A stretch of DNA of 33,525 bases, from positions 1-33,525 of the forward strand of contig JAJZVO010000047.1 in the NCBI GenBank assembly GCA_021845665.1, given 5' to 3'. Below are positions 12,665 through 30,633 of the stretch, in pieces. The stretch is from Bacteroidota bacterium (GTDB lineage: Bacteria > Bacteroidota > Ignavibacteria > Kryptoniales > JAKASW01). Each line of letters opens with the position of its first letter. Within the stretch, counting starts at the first letter, position 1. A program made the translations under genes and the position numbers. The notes beneath the pieces were generated by a model. That model did no database searches. It was not told the origin of the DNA and saw only the letters and a list, made by a program, of their open reading frames with translations.

Positions 12665-13333
12665 ATGGAATTTGAATCTGATTCCGAACTGTTTTCTTAC
12701 CTTGAAGCGAATGCCTATGCGGGCGTTTTTTCCGATGTCCTTGACGAAATAGGGCAACGCTTTCGGGTCGTTTCACCTCATTCCGGGATTCGACCGCTCG
12801 ACAACACATTTGTTGTCGTGGGAAGAGCGGTGACTTTGCTGAATGAGAAGGATGATAATGAGAAAGAACCTTACGACACTGTCATCAAATGCATAGATTC
12901 TCTTGGACCGAACTCACTTCTAGTAACGACTGGTAGCGACAATCTTGATGTTGGAATAATGGGTGAATTGACAGCCACCGCTCTTCGTGCCCGGAAATGT
13001 CGAGGTGCGATCGTCAACGGTTATAGTCGGGATGTCAGGAAATTAATAGGAATGAAGTTTCCTACTTTCGCGTGGGGACCTTCACCGATAGACACCACCG
13101 GGAGAGCAAGAGTCACCAATTACAATATTCCAATTATTATCGGTGGCGTTCGCATTTCTCCGGGTGATCTGATCTTTGCGGATCTCGACGGAACAGTGGT
13201 CATTCCTAGGGAGCTTGAGATAGACGTGGTTGAAAAAGTGATCGAGAGAATCAGCACTGAGAATCTTGTAAGAAAGGAATTGGCGGCGGGTCGAACCATG
13301 GCTGAAGTTTGGAGAAAATACGAGGTCCTTTGA
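12665..13333 (+). CDS. RraA-like protein / HMG-CHA aldolase family
   Basis: 222 residues with the RraA fold pattern: DVLDEIGQ near the N-terminus, GRAVT, then the core DVGIMGELTATALRARKCRG followed by AIVNGYSRD, where the Arg-Asp pair is the metal and carboxylate-binding element of the aldolases in this family; the more usual VDG is VNG here. A C-terminal DLIFADLDGTVVIPRE matches the family. Members are class II pyruvate aldolases/oxaloacetate decarboxylases acting on 4-hydroxy-4-carboxy-2-oxo acids, or inhibitors of RNase E; in a catabolic operon the aldolase role is favoured. ATG 12665 has AAAGGTG seven bases upstream. Its stop overlaps a TTG of the secreted protein gene, linking the cytoplasmic and envelope halves of the operon. 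Confidence 0.88.
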   Translation: MEFESDSELFSYLEANAYAGVFSDVLDEIGQRFRVVSPHSGIRPLDNTFVVVGRAVTLLNEKDDNEKEPYDTVIKCIDSLGPNSLLVTTGSDNLDVGIMGELTATALRARKCRGAIVNGYSRDVRKLIGMKFPTFAWGPSPIDTTGRARVTNYNIPIIIGGVRISPGDLIFADLDGTVVIPRELEIDVVEKVIERISTENLVRKELAAGRTMAEVWRKYEVL

Positions 13334-13341
13334 AATTGAAG

Positions 13342-16206
13342 ATGAAGGTGTTTGCTTCGTTAATTGTGGGGTTATTCCTCGTCTCTGCTTCCAAATGTTC
13401 TGCTCACCAAGGGTCACAGGTGGCGCCATCAACTTCTCCTTCATGCGGGGACAATCATATTGGTCAGATGCTTGTCAATACACCGTTGCCCGTTCCACCT
13501 TATTATATCGGGTCGTTCTACTGGGGATCGGCGCCCAAGGATGGGCCCCGTTCACGTCCAGCTTGGGATATTTCAACCAGTAAGATGAGGGACAGACTGT
13601 TTGCAAGATTAGAACAAATCGGCATCAATATGCTCACGTACGCGTATGTATACAGGAACAATGGACCGGTTTACCCGAACAATAATCCGAAACTAAAATC
13701 TCAGGTGAAGCTTTGGCTCGGGCACAATCCCGTGAAGGACTTTCTCGATGAATGTGAAACCCATCATATGTCCGGATATCTCGGATTAGCTTTGGTCCCA
13801 GACGGATTATCTGGTAAGAGATATTTCGATTATCTAAACGACATCACTACGGACATGGTAGGAAGGTTTAAGAAATATCCTGCGTTCAAAGGCTTCGTTC
13901 CACCGGTGGAATCCAGATCACCGAACCTCAATACCGAAGAGTTTTCGGAGTTAGCCCAGACTGCATTAAGGATTAAACCAGATTTGACAGTAATGGATTT
14001 TCCTAATGGACCGTTTGCTTCAGTGGTCAGGACGATCTTGAACCATATCCACTCCCGTAGAGTAAATATCGAAAACGTGCAGTTCTATATCGGGAATTTT
14101 TCGGAGTTCAGCTACGCTTTGTCCAATTATCGGGAAATGGAGGGCTTTCGCGGGCTCACCGATTTCGTTCAGGGTCTGTCGGACCGCGTAGGAACAATAG
14201 TCCATACCCATTACATGAATGGATACGGCGAGCGTGCCATACCGAAAGACCAAGTCTATCGAGTGTCACAGGGGGTCTTGCTGACGGCAACAACTTGTGG
14301 AATTCACTTCTTCAATTACTTTGATCTTTTCAATGGCTATGATATTCTGACGCACAGAAATGCATTTTGGCGTTGGGCTGCATGGTGTAAAGGCGTGCTG
14401 AGTGTCCAGAGGTATGTCCCATATTATGCAGGTTCAAAGTTGGTAGCCGCGGTAACTACGATCATTCCGAGGGAAACTGCCTTGGGCGGGACAGCTTTTG
14501 TCAACATGGCTTGGACACCTCTCGCGATAGCCCACATTCCACAAGCGTTTGCGGCTAATCTTGGAAACGTCCACACTAGAGTCTGGATAGTACCCTCGCC
14601 GGTCGGACTTTCAGAGAAACAAGTATCTTCGATTACCAGGTTCGTTAAAGATGGCGGTACGCTGATTTCTGTGCTTGACCCGAAGACGAACATCATCCCT
14701 AATCCGAATAATGATTTTGACTTCAAACTGGCAAAGTTCACTGTTGGAAAGGGGGAAGATCAAATCCCGCCGGATTTTCAGAAATTGTTGCGATGCGATT
14801 ACACTCACTACGTCGAGGACACATTACATTTCCTGTCGCGGATGTCGGCCTTTACAGGAGAGAAGGATATTGTAGCCGACGGGTTCGAATTGAATGCCAA
14901 ACCGAGAGATATAGTACTGGCGAGATGGTCGGATGGTAAACCGGCCGTATTGCTGCGCCACTTGGGCAAGGGCATTCTCTACATCATTCCCGGTGGCCTT
15001 CCATTCCTTGCGGAAGTCCTACCCCTTCTTGCTAGAGAAAACATGAACATGCCTGTAAAGGTCCGGAATTTACCGCACAGCTACATTCTCGAACTGTATC
15101 AGACGAAAGGACCATATTCGCACTCGTTGTTTTTAATCCTCGGAAGCAAGAAGGGCAGTACTGCGCGACACGTTGAGTTGGAACTTCCGTCGAGTATGAG
15201 GAGGAGGTTCGCAGTCTATCTTGATAACACCAAGCTCTGCGTCATAAAACCTGTAGTTAGAGGTGGTAACATCATACTTCGTCTGCCACGGATCAAGAAT
15301 TACGGTGCCTTGGTAATGTCCAACAACACTTTTCCGCTTCTTCATCCCGACGAATCATCGCGATACGTACTAGCGGGTAGCAGACAAAGAGTTTCTGTCA
15401 CATTGTTTAATGCTTTGGATGCCGCTATTAACGACACTTTGACCATGACGCTGCCTGAGCAATGGAGTCACATGACAACCTCCGTGCGAGAGCCTTATAA
15501 GCTTTTACCGGGTGAAAAGCGCACGTTCTGGTTCTATCTGACGGTGCCGAAAAACGTCGAACACGATACTTACTTCATTCACTTCACGACTCTAGGCCTG
15601 ACGCAACGTGAAATGTTCATTCCCGTCAACGGGAAGCCAAGGGTCATCATGCAAGGCCAAGCCGCTCCGACCCCGATGCCTCCTAGAGGAAAAATCGGAT
15701 ATCAATGGATAGGGGTCGCTGCCGGAGAAACGGGCAAACTTCGTTATGGCGGAATTGCCTATGTTGATAATAATCAGTACGACAACGATCCAGGTGTTTC
15801 ATTCTACTACAATGGTCGGTGGTCCGCTCCGCAGTCGGATAACGGGATAACATTTCGAACAGGAAAATATTCAACTCTCGCAGGCGGAGCCCGCTTCTGG
15901 ATAAACGGTGTGAACACTCATGCTAATTATGAATTAAGGATGATTTACAAGGCAAATTCCAACGGAAGAATACAAGTCTGGAACGGATCGCACTTCAAAT
16001 CGATTTCCGAAATACCGGTATCTCATTCCTGCGACACGCTCAATTGTGTCTTGCACGCTGGTGATTTTGTCAACGCTGATGGCACAGGTAATGTAGACGC
16101 GCTTGCGGAATTCTGTATTCCGCAAATCTCTGTAGCGAAGATTGATGTCAGAGAGGTGCCCTCTGGCGCCTTTTCGCCGACGGACTCGCTGCAAAGCACG
16201 AAGTAA
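13342..16206 (+). CDS. Large secreted TIM-barrel protein with GATase-like and C-terminal beta domains, putative glycan-active enzyme
   Basis: About 954 residues. The ATG at 13342 gives a signal peptide (MKVFASLIVGLFLVSASKCSA); a TTG at 13330 overlapping the RraA stop, with GAGG upstream, is the alternative. Residues about 40-370 look like a (beta/alpha)8 hydrolase barrel: YYIGSFYWGSAP, INMLTYAYVY, a strand end carrying E190 (FVPPVESRS) and another with D219 (VMDFPNGPF). Residues about 400-570 resemble the glutamine-amidotransferase-like domain of beta-galactosidase-type proteins (VWIVPSPVGLSEKQ, FVKDGGTLISVLDP, GKGILYIIPGG). Residues 660-770 form an Ig-like domain, and the last 180 residues are probably carbohydrate-binding. 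I cannot place it in a named family; glycoside hydrolase activity is inference. Confidence 0.75.
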   Translation: MKVFASLIVGLFLVSASKCSAHQGSQVAPSTSPSCGDNHIGQMLVNTPLPVPPYYIGSFYWGSAPKDGPRSRPAWDISTSKMRDRLFARLEQIGINMLTYAYVYRNNGPVYPNNNPKLKSQVKLWLGHNPVKDFLDECETHHMSGYLGLALVPDGLSGKRYFDYLNDITTDMVGRFKKYPAFKGFVPPVESRSPNLNTEEFSELAQTALRIKPDLTVMDFPNGPFASVVRTILNHIHSRRVNIENVQFYIGNFSEFSYALSNYREMEGFRGLTDFVQGLSDRVGTIVHTHYMNGYGERAIPKDQVYRVSQGVLLTATTCGIHFFNYFDLFNGYDILTHRNAFWRWAAWCKGVLSVQRYVPYYAGSKLVAAVTTIIPRETALGGTAFVNMAWTPLAIAHIPQAFAANLGNVHTRVWIVPSPVGLSEKQVSSITRFVKDGGTLISVLDPKTNIIPNPNNDFDFKLAKFTVGKGEDQIPPDFQKLLRCDYTHYVEDTLHFLSRMSAFTGEKDIVADGFELNAKPRDIVLARWSDGKPAVLLRHLGKGILYIIPGGLPFLAEVLPLLARENMNMPVKVRNLPHSYILELYQTKGPYSHSLFLILGSKKGSTARHVELELPSSMRRRFAVYLDNTKLCVIKPVVRGGNIILRLPRIKNYGALVMSNNTFPLLHPDESSRYVLAGSRQRVSVTLFNALDAAINDTLTMTLPEQWSHMTTSVREPYKLLPGEKRTFWFYLTVPKNVEHDTYFIHFTTLGLTQREMFIPVNGKPRVIMQGQAAPTPMPPRGKIGYQWIGVAAGETGKLRYGGIAYVDNNQYDNDPGVSFYYNGRWSAPQSDNGITFRTGKYSTLAGGARFWINGVNTHANYELRMIYKANSNGRIQVWNGSHFKSISEIPVSHSCDTLNCVLHAGDFVNADGTGNVDALAEFCIPQISVAKIDVREVPSGAFSPTDSLQSTK

Positions 16207-16307: not shown

Positions 16308-17687
16308 ATGGACAGGCGCAAGTTTGTTGCTGCTTCAATCGGAAGTATTCTCGCCGCCAAATATTCTGGCAGCGAAGGTTTGTTGAACAGAGTCACCGCA
16401 GACCGGCGGAAAATGGATCCCGGAACTACCCAGCTGAAAATCGGCGACCTGTCTCTAAAGAAACTTCGCGATGATTATCACTACTACCTTTTTGAAGACT
16501 TCCTTCCCTTCATGGATAAGTACGTGATCGACCATAAGTACGGCGGTTTCATGTGTAACGACGACAGGGACGGAACGAGGCTCAACACGAAAAAACGCAC
16601 CTGGTTCGAAGGAAGGGGCATCTGGGTCTACTCGTTTCTCTACAGGCACTTCGGAAAGGACCAGAAATACCTCGATGTCGCGACGAACTCATTGAAGCTG
16701 ATAATGAAGACAGAGCCCACCGGGGACGAACTTTGGCCGTCCGTCATCACTCGCGAAGGCAAGCCACTGACACCACCTTCAAAGAGAATTTACGGAAGTG
16801 TTTTCGTTGCGGAGGGTTTGAGCGAATATTCTTTCGCTACAGGGGAACAAAAGTACTGGAACACCGCGAAAGGGATCATCCTAAAATGCTGGAAGATCTA
16901 TAATCGCCCCGACTATTATCCACGAATTGTGGCAGACTATTCCGGTCCCAAAGTGATCCCGTTTCCGGGAGCCAAAATCCAAGGCCATGCAATGGTAATG
17001 ATCACTACTATCAACGGAATGCTTGAACACCGAAGTGATCCAGATCTGGAGGAGATAAGAGCAAAGTGCATTGACGCCGTAATAAACAAGCACTTCAACC
17101 CCGAGTTCAGACTAAACAATGAGCTTCTCAACCACGACTATTCGCGTCCCGACAATTATCTGTCCGAGTTTGTATACACAGGTCATTCTATCGAAACCTT
17201 TCGACCGATAATGGAACAGGCGGTCGCATCCAAGGATTTGAAATTGTTCCGAACCGCGGCGGAGAGATTCAAACGCCATGTGGATGTTGCATGGGACCAG
17301 GTTTACTCGGGAGTTCTCAGGAGCCTAAATAACGTGGACATGGACCTATGGGAAATCAAGAGGACTCCAAAGGTCCTCTGGGCGCAGGAGGAGTCGTTGA
17401 ACGGCATGATGGTCCTTATTGAGCAGGTCGGGGACGAGTGGGCAAAGAAATGGTTTGCGAAAATGTATGAGTATATGGTTGCCAAATATTGGCTTAAACC
17501 TTACGGGTATCATTTATGGATCACTGCAGCGGATAGGAAGGTTACTTTCACTCCACATTACGATCGCATAGAGAACTATCATTTGCCCCGCCACCTCATG
17601 CTGACATACCTGGCAATAGAGAAGCTGATAAGAAATGACGGCCGACCAGCATGGCCTGAAGCAGCGGATAAAGTGAATCAGAATTGA
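16308..17687 (+). CDS. Tat-exported N-acylglucosamine 2-epimerase (AGE) family protein
   Basis: 459 residues. The N-terminus DRRKFVAASIGS is a twin-arginine signal (R3, R4), so the protein is probably exported folded. The rest is the (alpha/alpha)6 barrel of the AGE/cellobiose epimerase family: WFEGRGIWVYSFLYRHFG, H293 in YTGHSIE, W358-x-Q-E-E (VLWAQEESLNG) and H425 in NYHLPRHL, the positions of the general acid/base histidines and substrate clamp. Family members epimerise sugars at C2 or isomerise aldoses and ketoses. Export is unusual, since most known members are cytoplasmic. Its stop overlaps the next start (ATGA), so the two are translated together. Likely substrate is a free or reducing-end sugar released outside the inner membrane (inference). 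Confidence 0.85.
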   Translation: MDRRKFVAASIGSILAAKYSGSEGLLNRVTADRRKMDPGTTQLKIGDLSLKKLRDDYHYYLFEDFLPFMDKYVIDHKYGGFMCNDDRDGTRLNTKKRTWFEGRGIWVYSFLYRHFGKDQKYLDVATNSLKLIMKTEPTGDELWPSVITREGKPLTPPSKRIYGSVFVAEGLSEYSFATGEQKYWNTAKGIILKCWKIYNRPDYYPRIVADYSGPKVIPFPGAKIQGHAMVMITTINGMLEHRSDPDLEEIRAKCIDAVINKHFNPEFRLNNELLNHDYSRPDNYLSEFVYTGHSIETFRPIMEQAVASKDLKLFRTAAERFKRHVDVAWDQVYSGVLRSLNNVDMDLWEIKRTPKVLWAQEESLNGMMVLIEQVGDEWAKKWFAKMYEYMVAKYWLKPYGYHLWITAADRKVTFTPHYDRIENYHLPRHLMLTYLAIEKLIRNDGRPAWPEAADKVNQN

Positions 17688-19885
17688 TGCCAGAACGTAT
17701 CCCCACCCGTTTCGTTTCAAGGCTTGTCGCTATTTCTGCAATTCTAATTATCGCCCAGCCGGCGATGAAAGCATCTGGAGAAGTTATCGGCGTCTCGGTT
17801 ACCCCATTCGAAGTCAGTGTCGGAGACACTGTCAAAATCACGGTTCAATCTGCGGATGGGAGCCCGCTCAGCGCTGAGCTCCTTATCCCCGACAAAGGTG
17901 TAATTACGCTTAGCCTGACAAAAGTAAAGAGTTCGATTTATGATTCACGCTTCATTATCAGCAAAAATGATCCACAAGGACTTTATGCAATTCAGGCTTG
18001 GGAAGGCGATAGTGCCAGACCGGCGGCTGTAGGAAAAGCAGCGTTCCTGCTCAAGAAGATCATCGGTGATTTCTGTATGATCGGAGTCTTTGATCCGAAC
18101 GGTCTTAAATCCGATATGGAGAAATACATTGGTGAGATAAAAAGTTTCGGGGCGAATTTTCTTATAGCTCATACGATAATCACCACCAGCAGGGTTTACT
18201 ACAGATCGAAAATCTGCGACATGGATAGTTCCCCTCCAATCGACCAGAGTTACCTCGGTACTCTATTGAAGTGCGCCGACGAAAACGGGGTCTCTGTCAT
18301 GCTGTCGGTCAGCTGGGACATGACCAGAAAGATCCCTCCTCCCGAGCGGATGGAAAACACATATGAAATCATCAAAGAGCTATACAAGCTTTACGGGAGT
18401 CATCCATCACTAGTGGGGTTCTACTCGTACCAGGAAGGGAGCGGAATATATTATGCACCATACGTGAGAGAGTTCTGCGACAATGTCAAGAAGGTGAATC
18501 CCGGATTGCTCACCGCTTGCGCGCCATACACGGACAATCCGTTGCTCGCGGGTTACCTGAGTGCCATAAGAAGTCTCGACGTAATAATCTACCAGGGAAT
18601 GGTGATGGCTAGTTACCGACCTGATAACCGCATCAAATTTCCTTTCAGGAGGGTCAAAGACTTCGGCTCAATCGCGTCAGGTGCATCGGAACTTCAAAAC
18701 AAGATAGTCTTAACACACGTTGAGATTTTCGGGTACCTGGAGAATGCTCTGAAACATTTGTACATCGCTGATTACAACAACATCTATCAGCAATTCCTGA
18801 GCGCCGCGACGGTTCCGCACAATGACGGAATTATCATGTTCAATTACAGCGGAGTTATTTACAATACCCTCAGGCGCTATCCCCAATACCGGAAGGAATT
18901 CGATCGAAGCCGTGAGGCGGTCCTTAACGGCATGAAGGCATTTGATTTAATCGGAAAGGCTTCCGAACGTCGGAACCAACTGGCAGTCTATCTCCCTTGG
19001 ACAGATTTTCAGGAATACAATTGGGAGCGCTACTATTACAATGCCCTTGATGCGTTCAGGACATTGGGAATCCCTGTCGACATTCTTCCATGGGCACCAA
19101 CTCACAACGAATCTTACCCGCCATTTTACCCTCTCCGAGAAAATCGCCGGGTCTTGACGCGGTTGTTGAAGGAGAAAGAGGTGTTAGTCCTCCCAAGCTT
19201 ATCGGGTTTAAATGAAACGGACAGTCAGTTGATAAAACACTTCATTGATGATGGAGGTAGCGCTATCGCATTCGGGTCCGAGATACCGATGGGCACGACA
19301 TACTATCGTACTCTTCTCTTTGGGATAAACAAAACCGGCGATCGGCGGACACATACTGCCATCATCGATGAAGTTCCTTTCGGCAGGACCACTCCCGCCG
19401 GCAAGAAGTGGGACCTCGGTAAGGTGACGCTTCCGGTGTGGAGAGCCGAGGGCGCAAAGGTCCTCGCGAGATTTGAAGACGGGTCTCCTGCAGTAACCCT
19501 GAACATCTATGGTAAGGGCAAGTTCGTCTCTTTCATGACCGATGTGCGGATTGCCGGCCGCAAATTCCCCTCTTTGGTGCGCGATGTCCTTAACTACATC
19601 GGGGTACAGCGCTGCGTTGATATCGTCGGAACAAATCAGAATTGCGACGTGGCAGTTTCCAAAACCAAATTGGGCTTTGTGACAGCAGTGGTGAATCATA
19701 ACAATTCAAAACTCGAAATCAGTCTTAAACCGTTGACGCCTTATTATCAAGGTGAAACTCAGAATTGGAAGGATCTTGTCGCCGGAAAAGAAATAGCAAA
19801 GTTGAAGAATAACGCAGCACTCAAAATACAAATCATGCCTCGCAGCTACAGGTTGATTGATATGTCTGATCAAACAGGGAGATGA
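17684..19885 (+). CDS. Secreted multi-domain TIM-barrel protein (DUF4434-like architecture), putative glycan-active enzyme
   Basis: 733 residues, starting at ATG 17684 and overlapping the epimerase stop. Order: signal peptide (about residues 1-31, hydrophobic VAISAILIIAQPAMKA), a small beta-sandwich (VTPFEVSVGDTVKITV, about 35-120), a barrel of about 300 residues (MIGVFDPNGLKSDMEKYIGEIKSFGANFLI; VSVMLSVSWD), with a candidate acidic residue E251 in GFYSYQEGSG, then a GATase-like domain (YLPWTDFQEYN; VLVLPSLSGLNETD; HFIDDGGSAIAFG) and a small C-terminal beta domain. The domain order resembles the protein at 13342-16206, although the barrels differ. The barrel pattern resembles DUF4434-type hydrolase-like proteins, but this rests on motif impression only. 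Confidence 0.75.
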   Translation: MMPERIPTRFVSRLVAISAILIIAQPAMKASGEVIGVSVTPFEVSVGDTVKITVQSADGSPLSAELLIPDKGVITLSLTKVKSSIYDSRFIISKNDPQGLYAIQAWEGDSARPAAVGKAAFLLKKIIGDFCMIGVFDPNGLKSDMEKYIGEIKSFGANFLIAHTIITTSRVYYRSKICDMDSSPPIDQSYLGTLLKCADENGVSVMLSVSWDMTRKIPPPERMENTYEIIKELYKLYGSHPSLVGFYSYQEGSGIYYAPYVREFCDNVKKVNPGLLTACAPYTDNPLLAGYLSAIRSLDVIIYQGMVMASYRPDNRIKFPFRRVKDFGSIASGASELQNKIVLTHVEIFGYLENALKHLYIADYNNIYQQFLSAATVPHNDGIIMFNYSGVIYNTLRRYPQYRKEFDRSREAVLNGMKAFDLIGKASERRNQLAVYLPWTDFQEYNWERYYYNALDAFRTLGIPVDILPWAPTHNESYPPFYPLRENRRVLTRLLKEKEVLVLPSLSGLNETDSQLIKHFIDDGGSAIAFGSEIPMGTTYYRTLLFGINKTGDRRTHTAIIDEVPFGRTTPAGKKWDLGKVTLPVWRAEGAKVLARFEDGSPAVTLNIYGKGKFVSFMTDVRIAGRKFPSLVRDVLNYIGVQRCVDIVGTNQNCDVAVSKTKLGFVTAVVNHNNSKLEISLKPLTPYYQGETQNWKDLVAGKEIAKLKNNAALKIQIMPRSYRLIDMSDQTGR

Positions 19886-19892
19886 AGCCATT

Positions 19893-21224
19893 ATGATTGC
19901 GCGACTTGGGAGAGCCTCTTCATTTTACGATCACAACTCGGTGATTTTCAAAATGTTGAAATCGGTGGTCGTTCTTTCCTTTTTTTCTTTTGTAATGCTC
20001 GAGGGATGTTCAAAATCGCCTTATTCGAACGGGATAGTTGGTCCGACAAGTTCGACTCCGGTTACTCAAAAGATTCCAGGGTTTATCGGTTTGTACCATA
20101 ATTCGACAGGCACGATCTACGGCGGCTGGGGCTGGCCTTCAGGAGAATTGATTCAAACCGCATTCAACTTCGGATTAAATGGTGTCATATCGCAAGCTGA
20201 ATACTATGGATACACATTTCAGACAAACCTGGTGGACAATTGCACGATTTGGAACACAAACAAAGTCTACGGAATATTGCGGCCGCCCACGGAAGGTGGG
20301 GTCGTCAACCAGCCCGGGGATACTCTCCTTCTTCAGCCTTTTGCGCAATCGCCCGGAATGATCCAGGCTGCTCATCGGTTCTCGGAGTTGTCGAAGGAGT
20401 ATCCGCAGATCTCCGGTATTATCGTCGATGATTTCTTTGAGAATTTTCAAGGGGGGAAAATAACTGTTTCTCAGTTGCAGGAGATCAGGGAGGCTCTCGA
20501 GGGAAAAACCCTTGATGGAAACGGGAATGTCGAGGATACATCTCAGGCCACTACTCCAAATCTGAGACTCTATGTGGTCGTGTATGAGGATCAACTCGGC
20601 ATTTCCAGCCAGTCGGTCGTTAACTTGATCGATGGAGTGAACCTATGGATGCACCATCAGAACGAGAATTACACTAATCTTGATCAGTATATAAGTACTG
20701 TCAAGCAGAATTATCCAGGCAAGGGGGTAATTGTGGGAGTGTATTTCAAGAACTCTCTCGAACAGATGACGCCAGTCAGCATCAAGTATATGATTCAGAA
20801 CTCCATAAGCATGTATGATCAGGGAGACATTGGTGGAGTGCTTCTCTTCTCGGCGCCATGGCTGACCCAACAATACATAACTCAGGAACGCTGGGACTCA
20901 CTCGCAATTCCTCCATTCCTGGACAGCCTCTACTATCCGAATCTTGGTGAGGCAACCGGAACGGTAATCGACGCTCGTACCGGCAATCCGGTTGCCAATG
21001 CGCTCGTCTCCGTACAGAGACTGACAGAAAAGAACACACAGCTCGTTTCGAGAAAGTTCACTTCGAATGACGGTGAATACAGCTTTGGTGGCTGGGCGGG
21101 GAAAAGTAATGGCTCATCTTATGAAGTCGAGGTTGCTAAGGCTCCATACCAACCTGAGACGTTTGACATTCAATTGCAACCAGGAATGCAAATCGTATTG
21201 CCTAACATACAATTAAAGCAATAA
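19893..21224 (+). CDS. Lipoprotein with uncharacterised TIM-barrel-like domain and C-terminal CarboxypepD_reg-like domain
   Basis: 443 residues from ATG 19893 (AGGGAG 11 bases upstream); a start at 19953 would give the more classical lipoprotein signal MLKSVVVLSFFSFVMLEGC. Lipobox LEGC predicts acylation and an outer-membrane or periplasmic location. The barrel-like domain carries D179-D180 (GIIVDDFF) and E232 (VVYEDQL), the pattern of strand-end acidic residues in retaining or inverting glycosidases. The last 90 residues (GEATGTVIDARTGNPVANAL) are a carboxypeptidase-regulatory-like beta domain. It resembles the protein at 24224-25303 over the barrel, and the receptor gene begins 38 bases downstream. 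In position it could take the place of a SusD-like surface glycan-binding lipoprotein, but its sequence is not SusD-like. No named family recognised. Confidence 0.75.
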   Translation: MIARLGRASSFYDHNSVIFKMLKSVVVLSFFSFVMLEGCSKSPYSNGIVGPTSSTPVTQKIPGFIGLYHNSTGTIYGGWGWPSGELIQTAFNFGLNGVISQAEYYGYTFQTNLVDNCTIWNTNKVYGILRPPTEGGVVNQPGDTLLLQPFAQSPGMIQAAHRFSELSKEYPQISGIIVDDFFENFQGGKITVSQLQEIREALEGKTLDGNGNVEDTSQATTPNLRLYVVVYEDQLGISSQSVVNLIDGVNLWMHHQNENYTNLDQYISTVKQNYPGKGVIVGVYFKNSLEQMTPVSIKYMIQNSISMYDQGDIGGVLLFSAPWLTQQYITQERWDSLAIPPFLDSLYYPNLGEATGTVIDARTGNPVANALVSVQRLTEKNTQLVSRKFTSNDGEYSFGGWAGKSNGSSYEVEVAKAPYQPETFDIQLQPGMQIVLPNIQLKQ

Positions 21225-21262
21225 CATGATCCAATTGTCACCATTTACCTCAAGAGCGTATA

Positions 21263-24163
21263 ATGCACAGAAAAACCATTTTCCTGATCCTGGCGGTGCT
21301 CGCCGTGGGTTCAATTTCACCGAAGGCTTTTGCATCAAGCGGCATAGTCGAAGGATATGTGAGGGATGCTCAGACGGGTAGAGCTCTTTTGGGCGCAAAT
21401 GTTCTCCTTGTCGGTACAAGCATGGGTGCCGTGACAAATGGGGACGGCCACTTTGTTGTGAATGATGTTCCTGCTGGAAAGTATAAGCTCCGCGCTTCCT
21501 ATGTGGGATACAACAACGAAGAGCTTAGCGTTACGGTTGTGTCAAATTCCACTGCGAAGCGTGACTTCAGATTGCAGGCGGTGGGCGTAAAAGGGAGAGA
21601 AGTCGTTGTAACGGCACAGGCCGCCGGTCAGAATTCTGCGATCAATCAGCAGCTGTCTTCCGCCCAGATAATGAACGTCGTCTCGGCCGCGAGAATTCGC
21701 GAACTTCCGGACGCAAACGCCGCCGAGTCTATTGGAAGGCTGCCGGGCATTTCTCTCATCAGATCAGGCGGCGAAGGTGCACAGGTAGTGATACGTGGAC
21801 TGGCGCCGCAGTATAACGAAATCACGATCGACGGGGTTGAAGTTCCGCCGAACGTTTCTTCAAGCCGCGCAGTTGATCTGAGTGATATCTCGTCGAATAT
21901 GCTCGGTGGGATTGAGGTGATTAAAGCGATTACCCCAGACATGGATGCTGCCGCAGTTGGCGGGGTCGTTAATCTCGAACTCAGGGAAGCCCGCGCATCA
22001 AAGAGAGGCATTCTGACTACCTTGCTGGCACAAGGTGGTTACAATGCTTTAACAAACACCCATTCGGATTACAAAGTAGTTGGAACCGCCGAATCTCGCT
22101 TCTTCAATAATCGGTTTGGAATATTTGCCGAGGCTAACATTGAGGGACGTAACCTGACTGCTAATGAGCTTGGTGCCTCCTACAACCTGAATGCGCCGCA
22201 ACTCGGTAGATCTAACCCGACTTACATGCAGGATTTGAGTCTCACCGACATACCAAGATACAGGCAGCGTTACGGCGCTGAAGTGGTCATGGATTACAGG
22301 AGTCCCACATTTAAGGTGGGTTTCATGAACTTCCTGAGTTCCGGCAACACACATGAACAAATAAGAAACGAAAACTACGATCTGGTTGATAATACTCACA
22401 GCTACAGTGCGACGGACGAGAACAGTATTCTTGACATCATCATGAATCTCTTAGACATCAGAAAAACATTCCCGCTTTTCTCTGTAGATGCAAAGCTCGC
22501 GCACTCTTATTCTCAAACCTCAGTGCCGAACCTCTTGACTTTCAGCTTTGTACAAACCGATGTCGGCCTGAACAATGTGAACTATCAGCGTCTGAGCCCG
22601 CAGGTAATACCGACCCTTGCGAAAAACGATTTGTCCCAGACCTATTTTCAAACCGCCCTGCAATCGAGCAGCTTGTCCAGAAATCGTCAGCTGTCGGCTC
22701 AGGTCGATTTCATGTCAAACATAAATTTTTCGCGAGACATTACGAGTGTCCTAAAATTCGGCGGAGCATATAGATACACAATAAAGTCTTATAATTACGC
22801 GAGTCAAGCCAACCGCTTCCAAATAAACGGTATCGATACAACTATTCAGGCGATCCTAAATGCTTTTCCGTGGATGCAGAGCTCGGTTCCCTCCGGCAGT
22901 ATCTATTTACCCATGACACTGTTTGTGGATCCAAATTTCAGCTATGGAAACTTCCTGAACGGTCAATATCCAATGGGTGCGCCTTTGAATATCGGTCTGA
23001 TGCATCAAGTAATGAATGTCATTAATCAGGCACCTCCTCCGCAATCGTACGACTATGAAACCGATGTGTCGACTAACGATTTCTTGTCGACCACCAACAA
23101 CTATAACGGCTACGAGCGAGAGAGCGCTGCTTATATCATGTACACGTTGAACTTCGGTCAGGACATGACTTTCCTGCCAGGGGTAAGGTTTCAGCAGCTC
23201 TCAACATTGTACACAGCTCCAAGGGGAACTCAGACACCACTCTCTTATGAGTACAGTGATACCACCATCGAAGAGACGCACGGTTTTTGGCTTCCGATGG
23301 TACACTTGATTGTCAAGCCACTTTCATGGATGCAGATTCATCTGGCCTACACGAACACTCTTGCATACCCATCCTTTGATGCTATCACACCAAGAATCAA
23401 CATTGGGTACGCGAGCGTGGTCTGGAACAATTACGCTCTTAAACCAGCACATTCGACCAACTACGACGCAATTCTTTCGATTTATGACAACACCGTCGGT
23501 TTACTGACGGTCGATGGTTTCCTTAAGCAAATTCGCAACCTGATATTTCCGGTCAACTCTTACGTAGTGAATCCGGCAGACTATCCGGGGATACCGAGCA
23601 ACACAAAAGGCGAACCATTATCGACATCAATTAACAACCCGAATGTTGTCAATCTGTATGGGACTGAAATTGATTGGGAAACTCACTTCTGGTATCTACC
23701 GGGTACATTGTCGGGTTTAGTCTTAAGCGCGAATTTTACTCATATCTTTTCGCGCGCCAAATATCCCCTCACGACAGTAACTACGATTTACCTTCCGAAA
23801 TACCAGCAGGTAGTCAACGACACTTTCTATACCGATCGTATGATTTATCAGCCTGATGACATTGCCAACCTTGCCATCGGGTATGATTACAAGGAATTCT
23901 CGATTCGCGTTTCCATGATGTTTCAGTCGAACGTCTTTCAGGGAGCTAATTTCTGGCCTGAGTTAAGAGAGTATGGAGCAAACTATCTCAGATGGGATCT
24001 CGCCGCCAAACAGGGGCTTCCTTGGTATCATCTGCGAGTCTTTTTCGATATGAACAACATTAACGGCGCAAAGGATGTCTATCTAAACGGCGGATCCAGT
24101 TATCCGCAATCGGAGAATTCATACGGAATGACCGCCGACATTGGACTTGAGACGAACTTCTAA
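21263..24163 (+). CDS. TonB-dependent outer-membrane receptor with CarboxypepD_reg-like domain
   Basis: 966 residues. A signal peptide (residues 1-25, cleaved near AFA-SS) is followed by a carboxypeptidase-regulatory-like domain (about 27-105, GYVRDAQTGRALLGANVLLVG), the plug (about 115-250, with RELPDANAAESIGRLPGIS and VVIRGLAPQYNEITIDG) and a beta barrel ending in ETNF with the terminal Phe typical of outer-membrane barrels. The receptor uses TonB energy to import oligosaccharides or chelates. The plug pattern is that of large TonB-dependent receptors outside the classic SusC set, and no SusD-like gene lies next to it. It is flanked by the two related barrel proteins. The import role is well supported by the family, the specific ligand is not. 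Confidence 0.95.
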   Translation: MHRKTIFLILAVLAVGSISPKAFASSGIVEGYVRDAQTGRALLGANVLLVGTSMGAVTNGDGHFVVNDVPAGKYKLRASYVGYNNEELSVTVVSNSTAKRDFRLQAVGVKGREVVVTAQAAGQNSAINQQLSSAQIMNVVSAARIRELPDANAAESIGRLPGISLIRSGGEGAQVVIRGLAPQYNEITIDGVEVPPNVSSSRAVDLSDISSNMLGGIEVIKAITPDMDAAAVGGVVNLELREARASKRGILTTLLAQGGYNALTNTHSDYKVVGTAESRFFNNRFGIFAEANIEGRNLTANELGASYNLNAPQLGRSNPTYMQDLSLTDIPRYRQRYGAEVVMDYRSPTFKVGFMNFLSSGNTHEQIRNENYDLVDNTHSYSATDENSILDIIMNLLDIRKTFPLFSVDAKLAHSYSQTSVPNLLTFSFVQTDVGLNNVNYQRLSPQVIPTLAKNDLSQTYFQTALQSSSLSRNRQLSAQVDFMSNINFSRDITSVLKFGGAYRYTIKSYNYASQANRFQINGIDTTIQAILNAFPWMQSSVPSGSIYLPMTLFVDPNFSYGNFLNGQYPMGAPLNIGLMHQVMNVINQAPPPQSYDYETDVSTNDFLSTTNNYNGYERESAAYIMYTLNFGQDMTFLPGVRFQQLSTLYTAPRGTQTPLSYEYSDTTIEETHGFWLPMVHLIVKPLSWMQIHLAYTNTLAYPSFDAITPRINIGYASVVWNNYALKPAHSTNYDAILSIYDNTVGLLTVDGFLKQIRNLIFPVNSYVVNPADYPGIPSNTKGEPLSTSINNPNVVNLYGTEIDWETHFWYLPGTLSGLVLSANFTHIFSRAKYPLTTVTTIYLPKYQQVVNDTFYTDRMIYQPDDIANLAIGYDYKEFSIRVSMMFQSNVFQGANFWPELREYGANYLRWDLAAKQGLPWYHLRVFFDMNNINGAKDVYLNGGSSYPQSENSYGMTADIGLETNF

Positions 24164-24223
24164 CAGCTCAATTCATGATCGCTTCTATTCTCGGTCATTA
24201 CGCTATGTAGGAACCCAACTCAC

Positions 24224-25303
24224 ATGAAATCAATAAATCGCATACTATATCTCTTCATGATTTTTGGTCTCCTGACTAGTTCGAACGCCGGTACCGTATT
24301 TGCCGGTGGTCCCATCAAAGCTTCAGTGGCAGACCTGAAATCGATTGACGTCAATATCCAAAGAAATGCGGACCGGGGGACAATAGATAAGCTGCAAACG
24401 CCGGGTCGTAGCTCGAAGACGATAGCGAGACAAAACGCGGAGCATCTTGTCGCGCTCATGCGCATGCGAAGACTGTTCCCGGCTGGACACCGAAGAGTCG
24501 TAGCATATGCAGGAATGAAGTACGACGCACAGGGAAAACCAAGAATCAAAGAGATGATCGACAGACTCAAAAATCTCGGTGTCAACTGTTATAGCTACCT
24601 GATAGACAGCCATTCGGTGGCGGAACTTGATGCGCTCCCTGAATTCTGCCAACTTGCTTTGGAGGTTCATTTGGAAGTATGGGTTGTCTTGGTGCCGCCA
24701 AGCGAAGAGCCGGGATTGCAGCATGGCTCGAGAATGCGGTATCCACCGTACGGGCTCGATTATCAGAAGTGGGCAGAAGCAATCGGACAGGTCTCCAGGA
24801 CCCATCACAATCTCACGCTGTTAATGATCGACGATTTTCTTTACAACACGAATTATTTCACTCCCGATTACGTCAAAAAGATTCACGCAATTTTAGAAAG
24901 GGAAAACCCGAAACTCTTATTGGGGGTTACCATTTATGAGAACCAGTTGCACAATATGGAAGAGATCCGCCATTACATTCCATACGTCAACGCTGTGGAA
25001 TGGGGGTACCAGCACAAAGCCAGTCTGTCTCCCAGTTATGGGATTTCTGCTGCAAGCCTTCCCGGGAATATCAATGAATTCGCCAGGATTTTCCCGGACG
25101 CGGTCCTCATACCCTGCATTTATTTCACTCCTCATTCGTCATGGTCCAGAGAGGCAACTCCAATTTATTTGAAAGCAACAATGACAATAGCCTACAGACA
25201 AGCAGGCGTCGTTCTTGTGTTCCGTACACCATATCGTGACACGAGACGTTATGAATTGGTGAAGAAGTTTTGCAGTCGACACATTTTGAGTCACGACAAA
25301 TAA
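24224..25303 (+). CDS. Secreted uncharacterised TIM-barrel-like protein, relative of the 19893-21224 lipoprotein
   Basis: 359 residues with a signal peptide (MKSINRILYLFMIFGLLTSS, cleavage near residue 28). After a linker of about 60 residues comes a single barrel-like domain: VVAYAGMKYDA, NLGVNCYSYLID, LEVWVVLVPP, D203-D204 (LMIDDFLYN), E239 (GVTIYENQL), VNAVEWGYQH, LIPCIYFTPHSSW and GVVLVFRTPYRD. Segment order and motifs match those of the lipoprotein at 19893-21224, so they are paralogues, but this one lacks the lipid anchor and the C-terminal beta domain. It is encoded 60 bases after the receptor gene. Likely periplasmic or secreted hydrolase on the glycan; family not recognised, activity inferred only from the acidic strand-end residues. 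Confidence 0.75.
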   Translation: MKSINRILYLFMIFGLLTSSNAGTVFAGGPIKASVADLKSIDVNIQRNADRGTIDKLQTPGRSSKTIARQNAEHLVALMRMRRLFPAGHRRVVAYAGMKYDAQGKPRIKEMIDRLKNLGVNCYSYLIDSHSVAELDALPEFCQLALEVHLEVWVVLVPPSEEPGLQHGSRMRYPPYGLDYQKWAEAIGQVSRTHHNLTLLMIDDFLYNTNYFTPDYVKKIHAILERENPKLLLGVTIYENQLHNMEEIRHYIPYVNAVEWGYQHKASLSPSYGISAASLPGNINEFARIFPDAVLIPCIYFTPHSSWSREATPIYLKATMTIAYRQAGVVLVFRTPYRDTRRYELVKKFCSRHILSHDK

Positions 25304-25458: not shown

Positions 25459-27297
25459 ATGAAACGATTACTCATAGCCTTGCTGATCGTGCCGATTGCG
25501 ATCCTGGCTGCGAGGCCAGCGAGCACATTTGCCCAGGCAGCGGATACTGTCTTGGTGCCAGCTAATCCGCCGGGCAGCATTAACACATTCATTATGGGTG
25601 ACACCACCACCACCGGTGCAAGAGTGAATCCAAATCGAGTGTATGAACTGTCCAAGGACTCGATATATTTTTTCACCGGAACAATGAACGTGAATTTCCC
25701 GCTAACTATAGTGGCCGGCCCCGGCAAGGGAGCACTGCCCGTCATAGAGCCAGCCATCCTCTCAGATAACTCCCGTCCGAATACTTTCATTAACCTTGAA
25801 AGCGGAAGTCTCACCCTTAGACAACTGTACTTGTTCGGCGTTGCGCCGGACCAGGCCCCAGTCAGACCGGGTAAAGCGGTCTTCGTTACGGGAGACAGCT
25901 TGGATATAACCGCGGACAGCTGCGTATTTGATGGCTGGACCGAGGCGGCTTTTTGGTCGAACGGAAATTGGAATAGCTACTGGCTGACCAACAACGTGTT
26001 CAGGAATCAACAAGATTACACCTCTTTCTACTACGGGGATGTTTTGTTTGCAACAAGCAAGATTCCCACGGACACCGTTTATATCGTAAACAACACAATA
26101 TTCTGTAATGAGGGCTACGCACTTGCAAACGTCTACTACAATAATTTTCTGGATTTCGACCATAATACTATCTTCCTGAGCGGCGCGCACCTCATGTATA
26201 TTACTTACCTCACACAAGCAACGATTACTAACAATATCTTTTATGGAACTGATGCTTCTGGAAGCATTCCAGTGATAGGTCTGGGTAGTCTCGGAGCGAT
26301 CGGAACGACATACGGCATAACGGAGGCTGAAAGACACGTTACACTCGATAACAACGATTATTATTGGCCACAGGGGATGCAAAATTTTTGGAATTCTATA
26401 AATGACACATCGACTTCAGTCGCCGACTCAATAATCCCTCCGGGATGGATGACACCATTCACGCGAGTAATGTTCAATGATACGACCTTCATGTCGATTT
26501 CGACTCATTATATCACGCAAGACACTACAATGAATGGTACGACCACTTCGTCAGCAGATACCCTTGTGGATACCACAACCTTCTATGCGGCGGATACTTC
26601 TTTTGTGCCCGACACCACTTTTGCCGCTGACACTACGGTAGGCACGGACACAACCATTATTTCTGATACCACCAACATAGTGAACACTTTCCCGACCACC
26701 AAGAGATATCCGTACTTCGAAGACACAGGAAATATGAGTGTTGATCCCGGCTTCTCCTCATCCATAATGGATCAGGTAGATAGTCTGGACCACTATGTGT
26801 ACTTGAGCAAAACTAAAGGTCTGGGAAAATACTTGTGGTGGTACAATCCGACAGGATCTGTGTATCCGCCTACTCAGCCATTACCAGAGAACCTTGTGTA
26901 TTCGAACGCGACACTCCAATCAGCTGGCACGAACAATTATGCTTTGGGGGATCTGAACTGGTTCCCGAGCCAATTGGAGGAATGGGAAGGTGGTGGTGTC
27001 AACGCTGTCAGATCAAATGCATCCCAAGTCCTGACGAAGTTCGAACTAAGCCAGAACTATCCCAATCCCTTCAACCCGTCAACCAACATTAAGGTCAGTG
27101 TGGCTCGGGCCGGCGTCGTGAGCCTGAAGATTTACAATGTTCTTGGTCAGCTGGTCAAAGTTGTTGACTTGGGCTACAAGCCTGCCGGCGCCTACACGTT
27201 CAACGTTAACATGGACAGATACGCTAGCGGAGTCTATTTCTATACTCTCCGGGAGGGAGCAAATGTCCTGACAAAAAAAATGATGTTGCTTAAGTGA
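25459..27297 (+). CDS. T9SS-secreted right-handed beta-helix protein, candidate polysaccharide lyase or binder
   Basis: 612 residues. A signal peptide (MKRLLIALLIVPIAILAARP, cleavage after AQA near residue 27) is followed by a parallel beta-helix region (about 100-290) with repeated N-x-N/D-x-F/Y turns (WLTNNVFRNQ, IVNNTIFCNE, FDHNTIFLSG, ITNNIFYG). Residues about 355-410 are a Thr/Asp-rich stretch with around a dozen Asp-Thr pairs. The last 85 residues, from FELSQNYPNPFNPSTN to YTLREGANVLTKKMMLLK, are a type A C-terminal sorting domain of the type IX secretion system, so the protein is exported to the surface or medium. Beta-helix proteins with this layout are often polysaccharide lyases or surface adhesins; no catalytic set could be assigned. 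A strong site AAAGGAAGGGA precedes ATG 25459. Confidence 0.85.
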   Translation: MKRLLIALLIVPIAILAARPASTFAQAADTVLVPANPPGSINTFIMGDTTTTGARVNPNRVYELSKDSIYFFTGTMNVNFPLTIVAGPGKGALPVIEPAILSDNSRPNTFINLESGSLTLRQLYLFGVAPDQAPVRPGKAVFVTGDSLDITADSCVFDGWTEAAFWSNGNWNSYWLTNNVFRNQQDYTSFYYGDVLFATSKIPTDTVYIVNNTIFCNEGYALANVYYNNFLDFDHNTIFLSGAHLMYITYLTQATITNNIFYGTDASGSIPVIGLGSLGAIGTTYGITEAERHVTLDNNDYYWPQGMQNFWNSINDTSTSVADSIIPPGWMTPFTRVMFNDTTFMSISTHYITQDTTMNGTTTSSADTLVDTTTFYAADTSFVPDTTFAADTTVGTDTTIISDTTNIVNTFPTTKRYPYFEDTGNMSVDPGFSSSIMDQVDSLDHYVYLSKTKGLGKYLWWYNPTGSVYPPTQPLPENLVYSNATLQSAGTNNYALGDLNWFPSQLEEWEGGGVNAVRSNASQVLTKFELSQNYPNPFNPSTNIKVSVARAGVVSLKIYNVLGQLVKVVDLGYKPAGAYTFNVNMDRYASGVYFYTLREGANVLTKKMMLLK

Positions 27298-27308
27298 CCT
27301 TTGCTGAA

Positions 27309-27342
27309 GACCGAGACTCACCACCTTGGTGAGTCTCGGGTC
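27309..27342 (+). promoter_or_regulatory. Strong intergenic hairpin between the T9SS protein and the lyase gene
   Basis: GAGACTCACCA (27313-27323) pairs perfectly with TGGTGAGTCTC (27327-27337) around the loop CCT; four further pairs extend it to 27309-27342 with a one-base bulge. No T-run follows, so it is not a normal intrinsic terminator. It sits 28 bases before the preferred lyase start and may stabilise the upstream mRNA or attenuate expression of the lyase. Confidence 0.6.
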
Positions 27343-27369
27343 TCGGCTAATCTTCCGGAGAATAGAGTG

Positions 27370-30300
27370 ATGCATAACAGAATGAGACTTGCCACATTTT
27401 TCTTTCTTTTTCTTTTCCAGCCGGTTTATAGTCCAGTAGCGGCTCAAGTGCTTGTGAGCAAGCTTAACCAGAGAGACCATTCGATGATAACCAAAAAGGT
27501 AGTCTACAAAGCAGATTTCAAGGAAGGAAATGTAAGTGGTTGGGAATCTTATCCCCCATTTCAAGACACAGGTTTTGATCCGTACTTTCACTGTGAAGCG
27601 ATCAGCGGGCCGACCAACAGCGTTTATTCCCTAATGATCGAATTCCGACCCGGTTTAGTTACGGAACATAAGATCGGCTTTGTAAGAAAACTGTCGCTCA
27701 TTGCCGATGCTACCACAAGAGCCTCCTTTTATTATAAGGCGAATGGATATGGCGACTTCAAAGGTATCACACTTATTCTATACGGCTCTGACGGGAAACA
27801 GTATTCTTATCATACCGCCATAAGAGACGACAGGGAGTGGCACAAGATCAGTGTAGGCCTCTCCGATTTCAAATTCTTGCGAACCTGCATGAAGCCGGGC
27901 ATCGGTATCGGGGGCTTTTCCTTAACAACTGACATCCCCAAGACCAACCCCGACGTTACCTACCGACTGTTTCTAAGCGATTTTCACCTTACCGCACGCG
28001 AACCTGTGCAATTCGAGATACAAGAGCCTGCGTCATATTATCTGAAGAATCTTCAATTATTAGTTCCATTACACCACTACACTCGGGGGGAGCACGTCGA
28101 TTTATCAGCGAAGCTTCCCAGCGGGGTGAAATTATCTGGAGTGAATATCAGCATTATCAATCCGGCTGGCAAAACAATCATAGAAGATGACGCACTGCAT
28201 TTCAACTCGACCGATAATTCCTGGGCGAAGAAAAACGTATACACTTTCTCGCGTCACGATACGCCCGGCCAGTGGACCGTGAAAATCGAGGGCGAAGATC
28301 GAATCGGAAGAAAGGTTGATACTGAGTTCAACCTATGGCTGGCAAAAGAGAATTTAAAGCATCCGAGACTTTTCTTCCGACAGAGAGAGATTGATAATTG
28401 CAAAGAGAAAATCAGAACCCAACACTGGCAGAATTGGTGGGATTCTCTTGTTCAGGAAGCTGCAAAGTCGAGAGAAACATCTACATTAGGGTCAATAAAA
28501 TTTGGCTCCGAAAGTTCAAGCCTAAGAGAAGTTCCGCCGAGAGAACTCGGACTAGAATCTCTGTCGAAGGTGAACTTTGCGGTTTTCGATTCCGTGTATT
28601 TGATACCAACCCTGTCGCATTATTTCAGCATAATGGAATCTGCTGAAAAGATTTTGCGCGAGAACGCTTTAGTCTATGCGGTGACAGGCGATACTGCCGC
28701 TGGTGAATATGCGAAGGAGGCGTTAATTAGGATCGCAAAATGGAAGACCTGGAACCATCCATGGTTTCAGGCTCGTCACAGGGAGACGTATTACCCAATG
28801 GGTGAGCTCGGTATGCGGGTGGCTTTTTGTTATGATATAGTTTATCCGCTAATGACCGCCACAGAGAGAGACGAAGTCAGCGAAGGTTTACTGAAAGATT
28901 GCATCATACCCGCCTATGAAGAATATGTATTGCATGATAGGACACCTTCCGCAACGACGAACTGGATCGGAAACACAGTGGGTGGCGCGATCTGCTGCGC
29001 TCTAGCCGTATACAGGGACGACCCGAAGTTGGGTGATCTTGAACCGTATCTTTCTGGGTTGTTAAAGAAATTCGAGATGTACTTTGATAATACTTTGGAT
29101 ACCACAGGAGCGTGGGGGGAAGGAATAAGCTACCAGGCTTTCGCATTTGCCAATGATCTACCTACGATCTCTGCCATCCGGCATGTACTTGGGATCAATT
29201 TAGCGAGTAAAGGACTACTCAATTCCTATAAGTACTTTCTTTACAATTATTCTGAACCACAAATACTGGATAACGGTGACAGTCATCCGGAATTGAGCAC
29301 TTTGTCATCGTTTTCATGGCTTTCCACTCACTCAAACGATCCGTTTTTCCAGTGGCTGTACATGAAAAGCCCCCGCAACAATGTCTTGGATTTTATGTTT
29401 GGAAGCGATTCCGGAGTTGAGACTCCACCGACATCCCTTCCGAAGTCAAAGGAATTCCCTGAGTTGGGTGCCGTTGTTTTCAGGTCAGGCTGGTTACCTG
29501 ACGACATAGTGCTGAATTTCAGGTGTGGTCCCTGGTACAACCATGAACATTACGATCAGGGAAGCTTTCAACTGAACGCCTTCGGCAAAACGTTAGTGCC
29601 TGAAGCTGGCGACGTAAATTATTACGCTGACCCGTGGTACCAGAGGTACTATATCCAGCCGGCGGGACATAATACTGTGCTCGTTGATCAAGACGCCGGG
29701 TCTCAGGAAAGCGGGGACTATCTGCATTTCATAAAATCCGCTCATAGGATGGCGAGAATAACCGACTTCATATCAACAGACGACTATTCGTCTGTTACTG
29801 GTGAACTGGCAGACCTGTACTACGGAAAACTGGCAGAGTTCCAGAGAAATATCGTCTTCTTGAATAGAAAATATTTCGTGATCTTTGACAGACTGAAATC
29901 CTCGGGAGCGCCTCACCAGTACGATCTGTTATTCCACTTCGGTAATCGTAAAGATGTTACTTTGGAGCGAAGCAACGTTTTTACATTCAAAACTGAGAGG
30001 GCTTCTCTATTTGCCCAGGTGGTTTATCCGGGAAATCCGACGATGAAAATCTGCGGAGCGCCGACCCGTTTTGGTCCGCCGCTACGCGAACCCGGGTACG
30101 TTCAAGTGAGTAATTCAAAGAAAAGCGGGAGAGAGAATTTCCTTACGGTACTTTATCCGGTGAAGGGTGACGGCGATGTTGAAATGATGTCCAAGAATAT
30201 CAAAAAGATAAACGGTAACGGCTGTGTGGGGGTAAGCGTGAAAATAGGTACCGGCGTCGACGCGTTGCTGTTCAAAACTGGCAGTGCGAAAATGGCAGAT

Positions 30301-30633
30301 GAAAAGGTTGTCACCGACGGCGAAATTGCAGAGGTTTCATTGCAAAACGACAAGCTATCGCATCTTGGTGCTTCTGAGGCCACCTATTTTAGCTATAAGG
30401 GCAATGAGCTGATCAAAGCTGATGCGCCGGTGACATTCGACGTGAGGCGTGTTGCAACAAGAGAGAAGTGGACAATTAACAGTAACGAAGAATGCAAGGC
30501 GTCGATCCTTCTTGAGTCCGAACCGACTGCAATAACACTTAATGGCATACCGCTAGAAGGGCTCAACGAAGTTGGAAAATCGATCCAAGTTCCTCTTTCC
30601 AAAGGATCAAACTCCTTGGAAATAGAATTCTGA
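27370..30633 (+). CDS. Secreted heparinase II/III-family polysaccharide lyase
   Basis: 1087 residues from ATG 27370, with GGAG nine bases upstream; the open frame continues to a TTG at 27301, but that stretch contains the hairpin and is rejected. A signal peptide (MRLATFFFLFLFQPVYSPVAAQ) is followed by a jelly-roll-like domain (about 20-215), an Ig-like domain (about 220-325), then the lyase core. The alpha-helical part has NWIGNTVGG (N531) and GEGISYQAF with Y588 as candidate catalytic tyrosine; the beta-sandwich part has NHEHYDQGSFQLNAFGK with H725 and H727. The family cleaves uronic-acid-containing polymers (heparan/heparin, alginate, hyaluronan-like) by beta-elimination, giving unsaturated ends. 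Subfamily and substrate are not determined. It is the last intact gene before a terminator. Confidence 0.9.
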   Translation: MHNRMRLATFFFLFLFQPVYSPVAAQVLVSKLNQRDHSMITKKVVYKADFKEGNVSGWESYPPFQDTGFDPYFHCEAISGPTNSVYSLMIEFRPGLVTEHKIGFVRKLSLIADATTRASFYYKANGYGDFKGITLILYGSDGKQYSYHTAIRDDREWHKISVGLSDFKFLRTCMKPGIGIGGFSLTTDIPKTNPDVTYRLFLSDFHLTAREPVQFEIQEPASYYLKNLQLLVPLHHYTRGEHVDLSAKLPSGVKLSGVNISIINPAGKTIIEDDALHFNSTDNSWAKKNVYTFSRHDTPGQWTVKIEGEDRIGRKVDTEFNLWLAKENLKHPRLFFRQREIDNCKEKIRTQHWQNWWDSLVQEAAKSRETSTLGSIKFGSESSSLREVPPRELGLESLSKVNFAVFDSVYLIPTLSHYFSIMESAEKILRENALVYAVTGDTAAGEYAKEALIRIAKWKTWNHPWFQARHRETYYPMGELGMRVAFCYDIVYPLMTATERDEVSEGLLKDCIIPAYEEYVLHDRTPSATTNWIGNTVGGAICCALAVYRDDPKLGDLEPYLSGLLKKFEMYFDNTLDTTGAWGEGISYQAFAFANDLPTISAIRHVLGINLASKGLLNSYKYFLYNYSEPQILDNGDSHPELSTLSSFSWLSTHSNDPFFQWLYMKSPRNNVLDFMFGSDSGVETPPTSLPKSKEFPELGAVVFRSGWLPDDIVLNFRCGPWYNHEHYDQGSFQLNAFGKTLVPEAGDVNYYADPWYQRYYIQPAGHNTVLVDQDAGSQESGDYLHFIKSAHRMARITDFISTDDYSSVTGELADLYYGKLAEFQRNIVFLNRKYFVIFDRLKSSGAPHQYDLLFHFGNRKDVTLERSNVFTFKTERASLFAQVVYPGNPTMKICGAPTRFGPPLREPGYVQVSNSKKSGRENFLTVLYPVKGDGDVEMMSKNIKKINGNGCVGVSVKIGTGVDALLFKTGSAKMADEKVVTDGEIAEVSLQNDKLSHLGASEATYFSYKGNELIKADAPVTFDVRRVATREKWTINSNEECKASILLESEPTAITLNGIPLEGLNEVGKSIQVPLSKGSNSLEIEF

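Follow-up and report, generated by a model that had tools for sequence, protein, structure and literature searches.

The window, the whole stretch of DNA analysed (33,525 nucleotides), carries on its forward strand two genes coding for barrel proteins, P0001 (19893..21224) and P0002 (24224..25303), both of which were recovered exactly where a preliminary description of the sequence had placed them, on either side of a gene coding for a TonB-dependent receptor (21263..24163). P0001 consists of a barrel domain (approximately residues 61-349; 20073..20939), delimited by homology to P0002 and by a low-confidence model, followed by a C-terminal domain (residues 355-441) that had been noted simply as an added beta domain, and which proved to be CarboxypepD_reg (PF13620, 9.9e-10). 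Matches to CarboxypepD_reg in other genomes reflected that common domain only, and were rejected as relatives of the barrel. Translation of P0001 may begin at M21 (window position 19953, 60 bases downstream) instead of at 19893, given the poor conservation of residues 1-20, although the upstream purine run is better at 19893 than at 19953. Its assignment as a lipoprotein was found to be plausible, with LEGC, LDSC and LNGC at the expected place, albeit as an atypical lipobox. P0002 is a soluble exported protein with a signal peptide only.

The surrounding genes place the pair within a glycan-catabolism cluster, bringing together, on the forward strand, an RraA-like protein (12665..13333), an N-acylglucosamine 2-epimerase family protein (16308..17687; PF07221), a DUF4434-like or GH42M-like barrel protein (17684..19885), the TonB-dependent receptor, a beta-helix protein with a type IX sorting tail (25459..27297) and a heparinase II/III-type polysaccharide lyase (27301..30633; PF07940, 1e-17; PDB 8khv, 6.6e-12). 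Gfo/Idh, amidohydrolase and symporter genes are also present. Such a grouping of TonB receptor, heparinase II/III lyase, epimerase, symporter and sugar-acid catabolic genes resembles a polysaccharide utilisation locus, but differs from one in having no SusC/SusD pair, a receptor of the TIGR01782 type and two copies of an unnamed barrel. The receptor scored 323 bits against TIGR01782 (cut-off 310) as opposed to 57 bits against the SusC model TIGR04056 (cut-off 368), and being so far below the latter it would not be expected to have a SusD partner. No SusD domain was detected in the window proteins scanned, and the proposal that the lipoprotein replaces SusD was left unsupported by a receptor that is not of SusC type. 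GH18, GH20 and GH84 were likewise not found in the window itself.

The 965-residue protein encoded at 13309-16206 and the DUF4434-like protein (17684-19885) showed an apparent distant kinship to each other (profile probability 58%), and on these sequence comparisons the window may hold a second, unassigned barrel pair; as relatives of P0001 and P0002 both were rejected, as was GH84, at profile probabilities of about 2% or less. Downstream of the lyase, close to the contig end, is a gene for a DDE_3 transposase (31272-32378).

Homology and subdivision of the barrel family

The homology claimed for P0001 and P0002 was apparent from BLASTP of the single pair (E = 1e-4), which extended across the whole barrel, and was confirmed by profile-profile comparison of their respective families (96-97%, E 4e-10 to 1e-9). 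When scored with the profile of the P0002 family, P0001 achieved 26.4 bits compared with 8.1 bits for the best of 5000 shuffles; the profile of the P0001 family, on the other hand, failed to raise P0002 itself above its shuffles, and the homology consequently rests on the P0002-family profile, the profile-profile comparison and intermediate sequences rather than on the pair alone.

Searches of whole genomes and contigs yielded 25 sequences, which were sorted into three subfamilies: A, the P0002-like proteins (8 sequences); B, the P0001-like proteins (10 sequences); and C, 7 sequences some 310 residues long that come from a different class of the phylum. Profile comparison joined A to B (96.7%, E 4e-10) and B to C (97.6%, E 3e-12), and direct BLASTP of C members with P0001, conducted against a small reference set, gave E values down to 3e-13. 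In the resultant tree fully supported branches set off A and C, each from all the other sequences; B was not set off in this way, since C had no fixed position among the B sequences. Both A and B were represented in two orders (genomes G482 and G626 besides the window's genus), and the pair is therefore either old or has moved as a unit. In three genomes (G009, G011 and G002) orthologues of P0001 and P0002 shared a contig and were separated by about 4 kb, as in the window, with a 966-residue gene between them in G002.

Neither barrel returned a Pfam, NCBIfam or PDB sequence match, in agreement with the earlier failure to name a family for them, and PDB sequences searched with the family profiles included none that matched the barrels. 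The sole PDB match of the 25-member profile, a septin (E 4e-4), was judged to be due to chance because its fold differs. No relatives of the barrels were found in the viral contigs or plasmids searched. P0001 and P0002 are a real, homologous and as yet unnamed barrel pair belonging to a new small family.

Predicted fold and conserved residues

The expectation of a barrel fold was upheld by the model of P0002, in which residues 91-353 (24494..25282) are predicted to fold as a (beta/alpha)8 barrel, with eight strands and helices in alternation. This model, built from six sequences, had a mean pLDDT of 64 and a pTM of 0.66, while that of P0001 was poor (mean pLDDT 46). Foldseek returned Cwp19 (5oq3) as the top match of the P0002 model (E 1.5e-8), whereas with a second aligner GH5, GH2, GH39, GH113 and GH164 tied at Z values of 17-18, with Cwp19 at 16.7; the fold matches of P0001 presented the same picture at lower Z. 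Entries for GH84, GH114, GH135 and GH85 were absent among the fold matches listed. Matches to such generic glycoside hydrolase barrels support a barrel fold in these models, not a particular family.

The [I/V]DDF and YExQL segments, two of those on which the original comparison of the two proteins was based, were both present in each of them, but the catalytic residues suggested from these segments fared unequally on alignment. The Asp pairs, D179-D180 of P0001 (20427..20432) and D203-D204 of P0002 (24830..24835), were invariant in 18/18 members of A and B, whereas the Glu of YExQL (E232 in P0001, E239 in P0002) was conserved in only 10/18, being replaced by H, R, T, S or A in the other eight, and hence is excluded as a catalytic acid on which the whole family depends. 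In the P0002 model D203 and D204 directly follow strand 4 (residues 197-202), on the catalytic face, which accords with the anticipated location of two acids at a strand end; the pocket geometry, deduced from the strand ends of low-confidence models, is a predicted one.

Throughout A and B the residues D203, D204, F205, Y238, W260 and Y300 (P0002 numbering) were kept in 18/18, and when C was added D204, F205, Y238, W260 and Y300 remained invariant in all 25 sequences. The position of D203 is occupied by Asn in subfamily C, which thus has N-D where A and B have D-D, giving [D/N]-D-F at the end of strand 4 in 25/25. Y238 (24935..24937) is placed at the end of strand 5, W260 (25001..25003) in strand 6, and Y300 (25121..25123) in strand 7 (residues 294-301). 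An acid overlooked in the preliminary description, E134 of P0001 or E161 of P0002 (24704..24706), follows strand 3 and was kept in 17/18 of A and B. The sole other near-universal acid, E110, sits in helix 1, and no acid on the catalytic face besides the strand-4 pair was kept in all members. This pattern of conservation locates the putative active site at the neighbouring D203 and D204, in preference to an Asp combined with the YExQL Glu.

Partial subfamily A barrels fused to a beta-helix-like protein were also encountered (L055:6235-8049, L054:3786-5471 and L056:8012-8560). In these half-barrels, which adjoin surface-polysaccharide genes, the Asp pair is changed to ED or RN, and they are probably non-catalytic remnants; such pair-less relatives make binding-only roles possible in the wider family.

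Comparison with GHL10 and other barrel families

The nearest known kind is GHL10 / DUF187 (PF02638), to which Cwp19 belongs. In common with the predicted barrels described here, it comprises exported (beta/alpha)8 proteins with Asp-Asp-aromatic after strand 4 and no strand-7 Glu, and of the five barrel families compared by profile it gave the best match. Cwp19 has Asp195-Asp196 on strand 4, a Gly (Gly328) in place of the strand-7 Glu and no other plausible catalytic acid (PMC5765458), and is a lytic transglycosylase acting on NAM-NAG in peptidoglycan (PMC6016235). At the strand-4 place of 30 GHL10 sequences from this phylum, the first Asp was present in 30/30, the second in 27/30 and a following Tyr in 26/30.

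In global mode the combined profile of the three subfamilies aligned with GHL10 over 219 columns (31%, E 9.4e-5), DD falling on DD, while GH84, GH20, DUF4434 and the family of the 965-residue protein gave E values of at least 0.19; in a column-shuffle null 2/400 comparisons exceeded the real score, both of them one-column artefacts. However, GHL10 was not found by single-subfamily profiles in the same mode, local mode gave the three-subfamily profile a probability of 5%, and with another scoring setting GH20 also reached E 7e-4. The PF02638 cut-off was not reached by the 18 members of A and B, by one C member or by consensus sequences, none of which matched that model. Moreover, the strand-3 W100 and R105 and the strand-6 PQxYW of GHL10 (L097 numbering) are absent from the barrel family, where a different set, Tyr, Trp and Tyr, is invariant. 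These comparisons of sequence weakly suggest a likeness to GHL10 that is distant or convergent, and not membership.

An adjacent Asp-Asp on a barrel is equally a feature of GH84 (O-GlcNAcase, PF07555), the enzymes of which are acetamido-assisted and use such a pair as catalytic acids: in human OGA, Asp174 and Asp175, an Asp orients the acetamide group beside the catalytic acid (PMC6008586). The likeness holds for all 18 members of A and B, subfamily C having N-D, and a GH84 gene is present in the G482 cluster. Homology to GH84, considered on the basis of the DD motif and this neighbouring gene, was rejected, there being no PF07555 match and no significant profile comparison. The N-D form of subfamily C may in turn be compared with the endo-beta-N-acetylglucosaminidases of GH85, which combine an Asn and one acid with Tyr and Trp, the Asn (Asn171, with Glu173) taking the orienting position (PMC2646837); as the Asn and Glu of GH85 are two apart, and not adjacent, this would be a mechanistic analogy only.

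Gene neighbourhoods and putative activity

Families acting on N-acetylhexosamines recur beside the barrel genes in separate lineages. The G482 cluster contains four P0001-like copies, GH84, GH3, a SASA esterase, an Nramp transporter, a P0002-like gene and a lyase; the subfamily C member of G806 adjoins GH20, GH18, GH3, GH9 and a TonB receptor, and that of G804 adjoins GH20, GH18 and a LacI regulator. In G699, by comparison with the RraA-like gene of the window, a subfamily C member adjoins two RraA-like genes, an enolase-superfamily protein and an epimerase. Subfamily A has a heparinase-type lyase nearby in the window as well as in G482 and G626, and G002 has a 1098-residue gene at the matching place. 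The recurrence of N-acetylhexosamine-acting families is the main, if circumstantial, ground for proposing an N-acetylhexosamine-containing polysaccharide as the likely substrate, and the family probably has a putative activity of cutting amino-sugar-containing glycans by means of the Asp pair.

The four P0001-like copies of G482 (L049:13989-16598 and L050:3656-6851) include some with and some without type IX tails. The Nramp-like transporter gene directly precedes the P0002-like gene in both G482 and G626 (L050:8371-9639 and L052:14649-15920), an arrangement not seen in the window.

In the proposed mechanism the strand-4 [D/N]-D pair would constitute the active centre, with D204 serving as the general acid, D203 (Asn in subfamily C) positioning the substrate, probably through its 2-acetamido group, and Y238, W260 and Y300 lining the pocket. 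The lack of any other universal acid on the catalytic face, together with a Tyr at the strand-7 nucleophile position, would imply a cleavage that involves no nucleophile from the enzyme: the substrate itself may assist, as in GH84 and GH85, or a 1,6-anhydro product may be formed intramolecularly, as in Cwp19. That P0001 and P0002 represent a (beta/alpha)8 glycan-cleaving family operating in this manner, whether distantly related to GHL10 or convergent with it, is rated as about an even chance.

A lipid anchor on P0001 itself and type IX sorting tails on four of its subfamily B relatives suggest surface display for this subfamily, and not a SusD role. P0001 may thus act on the polymer at the cell surface and the TonB receptor would take up the products, leaving P0002 to trim the imported fragments in the periplasm, where the lyase and the sugar-acid enzymes would also be at work; such a division of labour is plausible from the signal peptides of the two proteins. 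The fuller proposal is tentative, and is placed somewhat short of even: a new glycan-cleaving family of at least three subfamilies, relying on one universal acid (D204) with assistance from the adjacent Asp or Asn, would act on an N-acetylhexosamine/uronate polysaccharide, with a surface-plus-periplasm pair arranged around a SusD-independent TonB receptor. If the barrels do cleave glycans, the carbohydrate-active enzymes would gain a new sequence family, one whose active site is sparse ([D/N]-D with Tyr, Trp and Tyr). Genes found repeatedly in uncultured Bacteroidota, in clusters for polysaccharide breakdown as well as next to genes for exopolysaccharide biosynthesis, would then acquire a function, and the result would have a bearing on the way in which GHL10-like barrels break glycosidic bonds when the usual second acid is missing.

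Members of clan GH-A have Asn-Glu at strand 4 and a nucleophile Glu at strand 7. As barrels of this clan dominate the structural matches, and E161/E134 is kept in 17/18 of A and B, the family could instead consist of divergent GH-A-like barrels, glycoside hydrolases of the conventional two-acid type (whether retaining or inverting) with E161 and D203/D204 as the catalytic pair. The E161 column is not aligned as an acid in subfamily C, although a nearby Glu (KIERAA or KVERAA) may be equivalent; strands 5-8 are without a conserved acid, the strand-4 Asn-Glu of the clan is Asp/Asn-Asp here, and the strand-7 Glu position is occupied by Tyr300. A two-acid hydrolase is on this evidence considered unlikely.

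Similarly improbable is a non-catalytic role in glycan binding, whereby the lipoprotein would capture polysaccharide for the receptor and P0002 would be a periplasmic binding or chaperone protein. That both genes flank the receptor in the window's genus, that degenerate half-barrel relatives are known and that one putative active-site Glu position is highly variable would all be in keeping with binding, but the receptor is not SusC-type, and simple binding proteins usually relax conserved positions such as the Asp pair and three aromatics that are strictly kept in 18 sequences from two orders, with D204 in 25/25. Least credible, to the point of being very improbable, is a place in the endo-galactosaminidase group GH114/GH135/GH166/GH191. 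Its members are retaining, endo-acting (beta/alpha)8 barrels in which an Asp nucleophile is paired with a Glu acid/base at the C-terminal face (PMC12054363), and this arrangement would fit the Asp-plus-Glu pattern first described: a strand-end Asp on that face is shared and the D180-to-E232 spacing of 52 in P0001 resembles some of the group, but the required acid/base is not kept, the candidate Glu being found in only 10/18 (on which ground the GH135-type Asp plus Glu was rejected), there is no Pfam match, and no PDB sequence of these families was found by the barrel-family profiles.

Against the reading preferred here, cleavage of amino-sugar glycans by the strand-4 pair, stand those members of the barrel family that have no amino-sugar enzyme alongside, such as the ones in the exopolysaccharide clusters of G006 and G008, as does the failure to find GH18, GH20 or GH84 in the window. 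P0002-like proteins with an extra N-terminal region of about 300 residues (L027:11252-13180 and L028:10507-12345) were recorded in the same genus, in apparent exopolysaccharide biosynthesis clusters.
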